Source: Photobacterium sanguinicancri (lineage in GTDB: Bacteria; Pseudomonadota; Gammaproteobacteria; Enterobacterales; Vibrionaceae). Taken from it: a stretch of DNA of 64,000 nucleotides. Position numbers and translations under genes: made by a program. The DNA is taken from the NCBI RefSeq assembly GCF_024346675.1, contig NZ_AP024851.1:1302001-1366000 (forward strand), in the 5' to 3' direction. Of this stretch, positions 21,550 to 27,187 are shown piece after piece (within the stretch, counting starts at the first letter, position 1; every line of letters starts with the position of its first letter). The notes beneath the pieces are model-generated. The model was not told the DNA's origin. It did not search any database and was given only the letters and a program-made list of their open reading frames with translations.

Positions 21550-21675
21550 GCATGTCAACAAAGCCATGCTAAATGAAGATTTTTGAAAATAAATAATGGT
21601 GTATTAATAAGAGTGCCGAGACCTGCTATGAAGGTGAGCTACAACAAGTATTATCGCCACTGTTTTTCCAAAACA

Positions 21676-21701
21676 AAAAACCCGCTAGATAGCGGGTTTT
21701 T
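21676..21701. terminator. bidirectional intrinsic terminator between the acidic protein gene and malG
   Basis: AAAAACCCGCTA (21676-21687), GA, TAGCGGGTTTTT (21690-21701). It serves the malEFG operon on minus (malG stops at 21722) and the small gene on plus. Confidence 0.9.
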
Positions 21702-24274: not shown

Positions 24275-25456
24275 TTACTTGGTAATACGTTCTGCAACAG
24301 TATTTAGTGCGTCATCAACAGATTGACGACCCGTTACTACGTTACCGATAGCCGCTTTTTCTGCGTACCAGAATGCTGACATTTGAGGAATGTTCGGCAT
24401 GATTTCACCATTCATCGCATTGTCCATTGTTGCGGCAATACGTGCATCTTCGCTTAGCTCAGATTGGAATGATTTCAAGGCAACAGCACCGAGTGGCGTG
24501 TCGTCATTTACTTTACGTAAACCATCGTTAGTTAGCAGGTAGTTTTCAATAAACTCGACAGCTAAATCTTGGTTAGGTGATGCAGTACTGATACCCGCGG
24601 TTAGTACACCAACGAAAGGCTTAGAAGGGTTACCATTTAGTTTAGGTAGAACAGCGACACCATAGTCGATACCCGCTTTATCAATGTTGCCCCAAGACCA
24701 AGGGCCATTGATAGTCATTGCCACTTCGCCTTTGTTAAAGCCAGATTCTGCAATTGAGTAATCAACGTCTGGTGCAATCACACCGCCATCAACCAGTTTT
24801 TTCACGAAGGTCATCGCGCGTTTTGCGCCATCGTTGTTCACACCCACATCTTTTGCATCGTAGCCGTTAGCTGTGAATTTGAATGCGTAACCGCCATCAG
24901 CCGCAAGTACAGGCCATGTGAAGAAGGGTTCTTGTAGGTTCCACATGATGGCTTTCTTACCATCTTTTTGTAGTTCCTTATCAAGCGCAGCCATTTCTTC
25001 CCAGTTTTTAGGTGGCGTTTTGATCAAGGCTTTGTTGTAAATAAGAGAAAGAGCTTCTACTGCAACAGGGTAACCAACGTATTGACCGTTGTAAGAAACA
25101 GCATCCCATGTGAAATCAACAAACTTCTTCTTAAAGTTAGCTGATGGCTTCACTTCTGCTAAAAGACCCGCTTGTGCATAACCACCAAAGCGATCGTGGG
25201 CCCAGAAAATGATATCTGGACCATCGCCAGTAGAAGCTTGCTGTGGGAACTTCTCTTCTAGTTTGTCAGGATGAGAAACAGTCACCTTAATACCTGTTTC
25301 TGCTTCAAATTGTTTACCGACTTCAGCTAAACCGTTGTAGCCCTTGTCACCATTGATCCAGATGGTCAATTGACCTTCTTCAATTGCTGCATGCGCATTG
25401 ATTGAACCAAGAGCAGCTAGGGTACAAAGCGCTACAGTACTGAGGACTTTCTTCAT
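24275..25456 (-). CDS. malE: maltose/maltodextrin-binding periplasmic protein
   Basis: 393 residues. Signal peptide [20 protein letters not shown] ending AHA, then a mature N-terminus [20 protein letters not shown] that closely resembles MalE. Captures maltodextrins in the periplasm for MalFGK2. Family segments include [30 protein letters not shown], and [15 protein letters not shown]. The start at 25456 was chosen because AAGGA lies eight bases upstream; the in-frame ATG three codons earlier abuts the SD. First gene of malEFG, with CRP- and MalT-like sites upstream. Confidence 0.97.
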
Positions 25457-25648
25457 TTTAAACATCCTTCGTGATTGTTATTTTTTATAGGTATGACAGA
25501 CCTGTTCACACCGTAATTTCAGTCTTCATCTTCCATTACTCACCAGCAAGTCACATCCTCCTATCTACTACGCCCCCGAAGGCTAAGAAGCAAAAGCGTG
25601 ATCACTGTCGATATGAGTCCGTGACAGAGATCTAATAACCTCTGTTTT

Positions 25649-25687: not shown

Positions 25688-25769
25688 CCTCACCCCTTTA
25701 GTTTTTAAACTGTGATCTAGGCACTCCTCCCCCTTTGTCACCCTATTTTAATTTCTAGCAAGGAGGATG
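25688..25769. promoter_or_regulatory. MalT-type boxes of the divergent malE/malK region
   Basis: Three matches to the MalT box GGGGA(T/G)GAGG. On minus: AGGGGTGAGG (25697-25688; 8/10) and GGGGGAGGAG (25733-25724). On plus: AAGGAGGATG (25760-25769; 7/10). The opposite orientations suit divergent transcription. TGTGATCTAGGCACTCCTCC (25711-25730) is nearly repeated upstream of lamB (31787-31806). Confidence 0.65.
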
Positions 25770-25895
25770 TTATTGATTGCTATCTTAATGAAAATGGCTC
25801 CATACCCAACAGGGTTGTTGAAGATGTTTAACCGCATTGACAGTTATTGTTTTTTGACCGATGTAATTCTGGTGTCGACATACCGCTGGAATTAA
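25767..25895 (+). CDS. candidate small ORF in the malK leader
   Basis: An open frame of 42 codons from ATG 25767, with later in-frame ATGs at 25788, 25794 and 25824, ending TAA at 25893-25895. The best-supported start is 25824, with AGGG (25811-25814) nine bases upstream; it gives a 23-residue peptide MFNRIDSYCFLTDVILVSTY, then RWN. The ORF ends five bases before a stem-loop and 46 bases before an intrinsic terminator. It may encode a small regulatory peptide or a leader peptide; coding is unproven and no homology is claimed. Confidence 0.35.
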   Translation: MLLIAILMKMAPYPTGLLKMFNRIDSYCFLTDVILVSTYRWN

Positions 25896-25987
25896 ATACC
25901 ACATAGCTTCTTGGGGAAGTAAGCTATGTGAGATTGGTAAGGTAGCGGACTGATAGCCGTTAGGTGAAAGCCGCTACCGTTTTTTCT
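25793..25987 (+). ncRNA. candidate small RNA or attenuated malK leader
   Basis: Boundaries: 3' end from the terminator; 5' end estimated as 25793-25802 from the plus-strand MalT-like box (25760-25769) by analogy with MalT-dependent promoters. The RNA would be about 190 nt: short ORF, stem-loop 25900-25930 (CACATAGCTT pairing with AAGCTATGTG, with a GGGG-containing loop), then a terminator. It could be a discrete CRP/MalT-controlled RNA, possibly dual-function with a peptide, or the terminated form of the malK mRNA. Confidence 0.5.
25941..25987 (+). terminator. intrinsic terminator 90 bp upstream of malK
   Basis: GGTAGCGG (25941-25948) pairs with CCGCTACC (25971-25978), followed by GTTTTTTC. 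It points at malK and lies between malK and all the visible MalT-like boxes. Confidence 0.8.
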
Positions 25988-26011
25988 TCAACATACTCAT
26001 AAAATTCTTTA

Positions 26012-26049
26012 CCTGTAAGCATATGAATGAATACCATAATGCTTACAGG
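26012..26049 (+). other. inverted repeat in malK 5' region
   Basis: Perfect 11-bp arms, CCTGTAAGCAT (26012-26022) and ATGCTTACAGG (26039-26049), 16-base loop, ending 28 bases before the malK ATG. No T run. Could be an mRNA stem-loop or an operator for a dimeric protein. Confidence 0.6.
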
Positions 26050-26077: not shown

Positions 26078-27187
26078 ATGACGAGTGTCACTTTACGAAA
26101 TGTATGTAAAGCATATGGAGATAACCTGATTTCCAAGAATGTCGATCTCGACATCGCTGAAGGAGAGTTCGTTGTATTCGTTGGGCCATCAGGTTGTGGT
26201 AAATCAACGCTACTACGCTGTATTGCTGGCTTAGAAGAGATCACATCAGGTGACCTATTCATTGGTGATAAGCGAATGAATGATGTCCCACCATCTGAAC
26301 GTGGTGTTGGTATGGTATTCCAATCCTATGCACTGTATCCGCACTTGAATCTTTTTGACAACATGTCATTTGGCATGAAGATCGCCAAAGCCGATAAAGC
26401 TGAAACTAAAAAACGCGTTGACCATGCTGCTGATATTCTACAGCTCGGTCACCTGCTAGAGCGTAAGCCAAAAGCCCTTTCTGGTGGCCAACGTCAACGT
26501 GTTGCTATCGGCCGTACGCTTGTTGCTCAACCCGATGTATTCCTATTAGATGAACCACTGTCTAACCTAGATGCTGCACTGCGTGTTCAAATGCGTATCG
26601 AGCTATCTAAGCTGCACAAACAACTTGGCAGCACCATGATTTACGTTACCCACGACCAAATTGAAGCCATGACAATGGCTGATAAAATCGTCGTGCTTGA
26701 TGATGGTTTTGTATCGCAAGTGGGTAAACCATTAGAACTCTACCACTACCCTCAAAACCGCTTTGTTGCTGGGTTTATTGGTTCGCCAAAAATGAACTTT
26801 ATGAGCGTGTTCATTGAACAGGCAGAAAAAGACCGCGTCATGGTACAACTCGCCAATGGAAAAGCGTTCTGGATCCCAGTTGATGGAACAACTGTCACCC
26901 GTGGTGAGCGTATGTCACTGGGTATTCGCCCTGAACATTTAGTGCCTTGCGCTGAAGGTGATGCGTGTATCGAAGGTAAAGTACAAGTGGTAGAGAAACT
27001 AGGCCATGAAACACAAGTATACCTAAGCCTAAGTGGCGTCGATGCTAACTTCATTTACCGTGAAACCGATACCCTGAACATCGATGCGGGAGATACCTTC
27101 GAGATTGGTATCCCAGCTAACCGTTGTCACCTATTCCACAGTGATGGTAAAGCGTGTCAACGTCTGCATAAAGAAGACGGTGTATAA
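26078..27187 (+). CDS. malK: maltose/maltodextrin ABC transporter ATPase MalK
   Basis: 369 residues. Drives the MalFG channel and, in the enteric paradigm, sequesters MalT when substrate is absent. Walker [10 protein letters not shown] at 36-44, signature [15 protein letters not shown], Walker [15 protein letters not shown]-loop [10 protein letters not shown], then the C-terminal regulatory OB-type domain (GIRPEHLVP near residue 285). SD AGAGGA lies eight bases before the ATG. It is alone on plus, divergent from malEFG, whereas in E. coli it is joined to lamB and malM. A terminator-bearing leader precedes it. Confidence 0.95.

Follow-up and report, generated by a model that had tools for sequence, protein, structure and literature searches.

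The divergent maltose genes of Photobacterium sanguinicancri raise the question of what is made from the leader of malK: a peptide, a switch in front of malK, or an RNA with a function of its own. The window, which is the whole 64,000-nt stretch of DNA analysed, belongs to the second contig of a two-contig, 5.55-Mb P. sanguinicancri genome, and its MalE is 100% identical to that of P. sanguinicancri CAIM 1827. In the ORF list, malE (24275-25465, minus strand; homologues found) is divergent from malK (26078-27187, plus strand; identified through its resemblance to the malK locus in relatives), and the two genes flank the gap as a previous sequence-only reading had assumed. In our view, the most likely product of the malK leader is a small regulatory RNA related to one described in Vibrio. 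Specifically, 25802-25986 would be a MalT-activated, terminated, fbp-lowering noncoding sRNA, the Photobacterium counterpart of Vsr217/CtrR, to which we give a probability of roughly 0.75. The basis is the anatomy of the leader, its conservation and covariation, its homologous position, and a C-run upstream of fbp. Rfam gave no match in the window at the gathering score, and the seven matches at a low threshold (E 3.4-9.2) look like chance.

In 2021, Luo et al. (PMC8265627) described Vsr217, an sRNA that Vibrio tasmaniensis (LGP32) makes from its malK leader. According to the main text of that paper, maltose induces Vsr217 through MalT, the sRNA is needed in cis for full malK expression, and it represses fbp in trans in an Hfq-dependent manner (PMC8265627). 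CtrR (ncRNA586) is its V. cholerae homologue, also in the malK leader, with manA, malE, and lamB as predicted targets via nucleotides 152-161 (PMC10370196). The main text of this preprint, citing Luo et al., states that CtrR is conserved across Vibrionaceae, and an extension to Photobacterium is therefore expected rather than startling. The word Photobacterium is in neither main text (PMC8265627, PMC10370196), and no report of a malK-leader sRNA in Photobacterium was found in the literature searched. The window leader has the position of Vsr217 and CtrR, 5' of malK and opposite malE. The previous proposal that this leader yields a distinct MalT-type RNA ending at its own terminator is supported, as such an RNA is published for Vibrio and the sequence features carry over. 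A described Vibrio sRNA is hereby carried into a second genus.

For the comparison of leaders, we used malE loci whose organisms are named, taking the best 80 of 206 relatives. A divergent malK was present in 76 of the 80 loci, and L051, L059, L066, and L072 were dropped for want of one. The MalT-like box AAGGAGGATG that had been claimed is present at 25760-25769 (plus strand), and the promoter-proximal MalT box GGAGGATG (25762..25769, plus strand) lies about 40 nt upstream of the putative start. The anchor rule located GGA(G/T)GA in 72 of the 76 leaders (from the best 80 of 206 relatives), and the four that it missed (L070, L073, L075, and L083) carry GGA(G/T)GA and sRNA features by eye. Further upstream is CTCCTCCCCC (GGGGGAGGAG on the minus strand; 25724..25733, minus), which would be an inverted MalT-box-like stretch. 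The stretch TGTGATCTAGGCAC (25711..25724, plus strand), picked by eye, is a candidate CRP-like half-site. TGTGATC..CAC-like stretches upstream of the MalT box were seen by eye in many relatives' leaders. GAAAAT at 25790..25795 (plus strand; AAGAAT or similar in relatives) is likely the -10 of the promoter P1, judged from its position relative to the putative start.

The ends of the sRNA were transferred from the Vibrio work. By its deletion primers, the 5' end of Vsr217 is at the CATCCAAGAGTGGATG hairpin (PMC8265627). In Vibrio leaders, CATCCAAGAGTGGATG follows after 39 nt counted from the first base of GGAGGATG. The window also has 39 nt from the MalT box to CATACCCAACAGGG, as in Vibrio and in the primer-matching leader L260. 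By this box-hairpin spacing and the transferred ends, the sRNA would cover about 25802-25986 on the plus strand. Its 5' hairpin, ACCC-AACA-GGGT (25804..25815, plus strand; AUCC...GGAU in Vibrio), is weak by itself (25802-25820, -4.7 kcal/mol, 46 of 200 shuffles as good) and is kept in alignments A1 and A2.

The sequence-only reading had suggested that this sRNA may also encode a peptide of 23 or 42 residues, like SgrS/SgrT and VcdRP, carbon-related regulatory RNAs that encode a peptide. As had been stated, the frame that begins with ATG 25767 and whose stop ends at 25895 (plus strand) is open in the window, and ATG 25824 does have AGGG (25811-25814) nine bases upstream. The frame has 42 codons in the window, 42 in the same species (L032), and 40 in L003, whose DNA is 88% identical to the window. 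In the other 20 of 23 Photobacterium rows it has only 3-17 codons, so that it is open in three rows, all close kin. At the place of codon 25824, six of these 20 rows have ATG (giving 1-16 codons), 12 have a different codon, and two lack the motif. As a start, ATG 25767 was rejected, being inside the MalT box and about 35 nt upstream of the putative transcription start; AGGG is within the 3' arm of the 5' hairpin. On these comparisons, the chance that the RNA encodes a peptide appears negligible, and we would reject the short ORF as a gene and drop the peptide reading.

The structure of the leader is better conserved than the frame. As a whole, the plus strand of 25740-25990 gives a more stable fold than shuffled sequence (z -3.27; 2 of 200 shuffles equal it). 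The stem-loop with a GGGG loop lies exactly where it had been predicted, at 25900-25930 (plus strand), with the form CACATAGCTTCTT-GGGG-AAG-T-AAGCTATGTG and the loop, our proposed pairing site, at 25913-25916. Folded alone, it gave -14.8 kcal/mol, which none of 200 shuffles reached. GGGGAAGT is invariant in alignments A1 and A3 (18 of 23 sequences in A3, the near-duplicates L038, L050, L054, L057, and L058 being left out). GGGGA is present in 21/21 Photobacterium and 42/42 Vibrio sRNA bodies, and GGGGG in 42/42 Vibrio. Covariation was measured in a model-based alignment of 23 Photobacterium sequences (17 distinct), which was fitted to the structure and leans to it; 88.5% of cells pair, double changes occur in 9 of 20 pairs, and the score is 0.340 versus 0.168 in shuffles, with 0 of 500 shuffles as high. 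In this alignment the GGGG-loop hairpin has double changes in 8 of 13 pairs, and the terminator in 1 of 7 (80.7% of cells paired). In the Vibrio-type alignment A2 (35 of 38 prepared sequences, without L091, L107, and L110), nine of ten terminator pairs have double changes. RNAalifold did not find the Photobacterium terminator on A1, because MAFFT misaligns its two arms, and the terminator was instead scored in each sequence singly and in the model alignment. The conservation check favours the structures, which are kept and covary, including compensatory double changes in the Photobacterium loop hairpin and the Vibrio terminator.

A model, R1, built from 18 Photobacterium sequences matches 33 of 52 Photobacterium genomes. 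MalE (E <= 1e-80) is present in 37 of the 52, including all 33 R1 genomes; the four with MalE and no R1 match are G008, G012, G042, and G046. When R1 was run on 55 loci from Vibrio, other genera, and P. damselae, it gave six matches, none significant (E 0.38-5.7), all at the 3' end of malK leaders.

That 3' end carries the GC-rich terminator with six Ts that had been noted before malK, and sequence, fold, and conservation agree on it. It has the form GGTAGCGG...CCGCTACC-G-TTTTTT-C (25941-25986, plus strand), with the stem at 25941-25948/25971-25978 and the T-tract at 25980-25985. Folded alone, 25941-25987 gave -21.8 kcal/mol and 0 of 200 shuffles were as good. A simple terminator scan of the window stretch found none, because it allows loops of 3-8 only. 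The published 3' end of Vsr217 is a TTTTC motif (PMC8265627), to which TTTTTTC at 25980-25986 corresponds. Relatives were scored by a rule that takes a stem of at least 6 pairs with at least 4 G-C, followed by a T-tract. Of 72 leaders (from the best 80 of 206 relatives), 59 have a stem directly before a T-tract, 56 of them at the expected place; the best hairpins of L100, L101, and L106 lie elsewhere. The four leaders without the anchor (L070, L073, L075, and L083) were left out of this count (72 of 76 kept), and 42 of 1440 shuffles match the real leader. Nine of the 13 misses are leaders without the sRNA, from P. damselae (L036), the V. rumoiensis group (L039-L043), Psychromonas (L077 and L088), and Moritella (L092), and the other four are Vibrio with weak ends (L078, L089, L094, and L104).

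The Vibrio leader itself was also reached through the published primers. A 26-base pattern from these primers (PMC8265627) has matches in 31 of 329 Vibrionaceae genomes, two of them mismatch-free. In leader L260, from a mismatch-free genome, more of the published primer sequences can be recognised by eye; its TTTTTTC is immediately preceded by a 12-pair stem with a single bulge (fold energy -24.1 kcal/mol). Ten of the 11 other V. tasmaniensis-kind leaders (L258-L269) fold like L260, and L265 prefers a rival fold.

The Vibrio authors favour another origin of the 3' end, in which an RNase cuts the same sRNA from the malK mRNA and the 3' hairpin and T-tract only protect it. The main text reports vsr217-malK co-transcripts, FindTerm found no Rho-independent terminator for Vsr217, and a 13-nt deletion at the 3' end lowered the sRNA 100-fold and left malK mRNA unchanged (PMC8265627). 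Judged from the primers, and this is our own rereading, that deletion removes the base of the 3' arm and the T-tract. It would therefore abolish termination, which fits the 100-fold loss of the sRNA; the unchanged malK mRNA does not fit a simple terminator. The stem before the T-tract in most leaders, and in the primer-carrying L260, speaks against cutting, which we consider unlikely. On the sequences compared, a hairpin before the T-tract, kept in Photobacterium and in Vibrio including the leader with the V. tasmaniensis primers, is new relative to the published picture. It suggests how the sRNA 3' end may be made, a question left open in the Vibrio work: by an intrinsic terminator unreported by the predictor used there.

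Positions 157-158 of CtrR were altered in the preprint to test target pairing (PMC10370196). If numbered from the conserved ATCC, they fall in the 5' arm of the terminator stem in L064, L065, and L106 (V. metoecus, V. mimicus, and Vibrio sp. HDW18).

A real terminator means that malK transcribed from P1 needs read-through. The sequence-only reading had offered attenuation of malK as an explanation. Its terminator stood, and premature termination is plausible; neither antiterminator nor leader-peptide logic was found by eye, and we find no support for regulated attenuation. In such an attenuator, a signal sensed by the leader would control read-through into malK, and the short RNA would be a by-product. 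The terminator between promoter and malK agrees with this, and by eye the ACCC/GGGT of the 5' hairpin could partly pair with the terminator arms. However, there is no conserved frame for a leader peptide, and competing hairpins, looked for by eye only, were not found. In L037 and L038 the 5' hairpin is altered and the terminator shows no corresponding change, and the Vibrio RNA acts in trans on fbp (PMC8265627, main text). We regard a regulated attenuator as improbable, and read the RNA as a terminated sRNA in its own right.

Downstream of the terminator, an inverted repeat CCTGTAAGCAT/ATGCTTACAGG (26012..26049, plus strand) has 11-bp arms and ends 28 nt before the malK start codon (-16.8 kcal/mol, 0 of 200 shuffles as good). 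Of the 72 leaders compared (from the best 80 of 206 relatives), 55 have a repeat of this kind, counted if it has at least 7 pairs and ends 24-36 nt before ATG; the arms differ between leaders, and some of the 55 lack the sRNA (e.g. L039). In many Vibrio the loop of the repeat holds CATATAATGA, which resembles the -10 of the published P2.

The sRNA was next compared with its possible target. The fbp gene of the same genome (L120) has CCCCCC at -32 to -27 from the start codon. A C-run was defined as at least 4 C at -60 to -19, with one fbp copy counted per genome. Among Photobacterium genomes it lies upstream of fbp in 32 of 33 with the sRNA versus 2 of 19 without it. For sRNA-bearing Vibrio the figure is 36 of 41, versus 2 of 8 in a set without the sRNA made up of five genomes from the V. 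rumoiensis group, Moritella, and two Psychromonas. Eight added genomes of the V. tasmaniensis kind all have it, giving 44 of 49 Vibrio. As background, such a run precedes 49 of 400 ORF starts; within the window it precedes 4 of 52. The sRNA without a C-run was seen in G049 and five Vibrio, and a C-run without the sRNA in four genomes. The most frequent 4-mer in Vibrio fbp leaders, counted without alignment at -60 to -20, is CCCC (44 of 49); Photobacterium fbp leaders are too alike between species for a footprint to single out the C-run. On the sRNA side, GGGGA is present in 41/41 Vibrio leaders behind the fbp count and in 0/9 leaders without the sRNA. The published Vsr217-fbp pairing ends 29 nt before the start codon (PMC8265627), and the C-run of L272, at -34 to -30, fits this.

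Four sRNA-bearing genomes with two fbp copies (G016, G022, G029, and G037) have the C-run in one copy only. The copy with the genus-typical upstream sequence was counted, and the second copies (L192, L205, L132, and L206), with another upstream sequence and no C-run, were left out, as was L148, one of two fbp loci of G013, which has no start motif. In G140 (V. sonorensis) the fbp match is split (L256/L257) with a stop codon inside, indicating a disrupted gene or an assembly error.

On the fbp tree, the C-run changes ten times and sRNA presence only twice. Therefore, the co-occurrence of the two is not independent evidence, and the Fisher tests (1.3e-10 and 7.5e-4) were not counted as evidence. 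The loop-fbp duplex in the P. sanguinicancri genome has -11.0 kcal/mol, which is reached by 10 of 51 window ORF starts and is not discriminating; an unconstrained duplex of the whole sRNA is uninformative, as it ignores folding within each strand. The exact 10-base loop complement has 8 matches in the genome versus 21 for a backwards-read control pattern; one is the antisense of the sRNA itself, and six are inside or opposite longer frames. With traits that are not independent and an unremarkable pairing energy, control of fbp in P. sanguinicancri is likely but unproven. The match of an invariant sRNA G-run by an fbp C-run, as far as sequence can tell, is new relative to the published picture, and it replaces the unsupported peptide with a testable pairing of the GGGG loop with the fbp C-run. 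At L117 (C2:1135490-1135499), the loop complement falls in codons 4-7 of a 48-codon frame (MESTSPKHPM...), a possible extra target or chance.

GGA is the CsrA motif. The G-rich loops might bind CsrA and not mRNA, which would make the RNA a small CsrA sponge, and GGGGA is indeed kept in both genera, in or beside the hairpin loop. However, in Photobacterium the A is paired and the loop consists of GGGG, a sponge would be expected to hold more than one or two sites, and the fbp C-run is kept in most sRNA-bearing genomes. A sponge is thus very unlikely in our opinion, and pairing with fbp is the reading we keep.

We propose the following course of events. Transcription from the MalT-dependent P1 would start near 25802, and most transcripts would stop at the intrinsic terminator at 25941-25986, giving a noncoding RNA with a 3' U-tail, from which no peptide would be made. 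malK would be supplied by read-through transcripts and by a second promoter nearer the gene. Through its exposed GGGG loop the RNA would pair with the fbp C-run, which lies 27-32 nt ahead of the start codon, and would lower fructose-1,6-bisphosphatase during maltose use. MalT dependence, the sRNA and malK transcripts, the second promoter, and Hfq-dependent fbp repression are taken from the main text on Vibrio (PMC8265627); for the window genome, we infer the start site, termination in cells, and fbp control. A wider proposal is tentative and has clearly less than even odds: one MalT promoter may feed both the sRNA and malK through a conserved leaky terminator across Vibrionaceae, the G-run and C-run having been kept together since before the split of Photobacterium and Vibrio, and read-through, with the conserved hairpin before malK, may be regulated. 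If true, this would be an old, hard-wired link that turns gluconeogenesis down on maltose import.

Several known RNAs can be set beside this one. MicX of V. cholerae and MalH of E. coli are also sRNAs of maltose operons, but come from the malG end. In the window, a hairpin AACCCGCTATCTAGCGGGTT followed by TTTT (21675-21700, minus strand) lies past the end of malG and is likely the operon terminator; this malG side is the one that yields MicX/MalH-like sRNAs in other species. Unlike SgrS/SgrT and VcdRP, the malK-leader RNA has no conserved frame. With Vsr217, as its main text describes it, the Photobacterium RNA has in common the malK leader, the MalT box, the 5' hairpin at the same distance, the G-run in a loop, the 3' T-tract motif, and the fbp C-run. 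The two differ in that the Photobacterium RNA has one GGGG loop whereas Vibrio Vsr217 has two G-rich stretches, and the middle part of the Photobacterium RNA is not alignable to Vsr217. In addition, no terminator is predicted in the Vsr217 paper (PMC8265627), whereas the Photobacterium leader has one.
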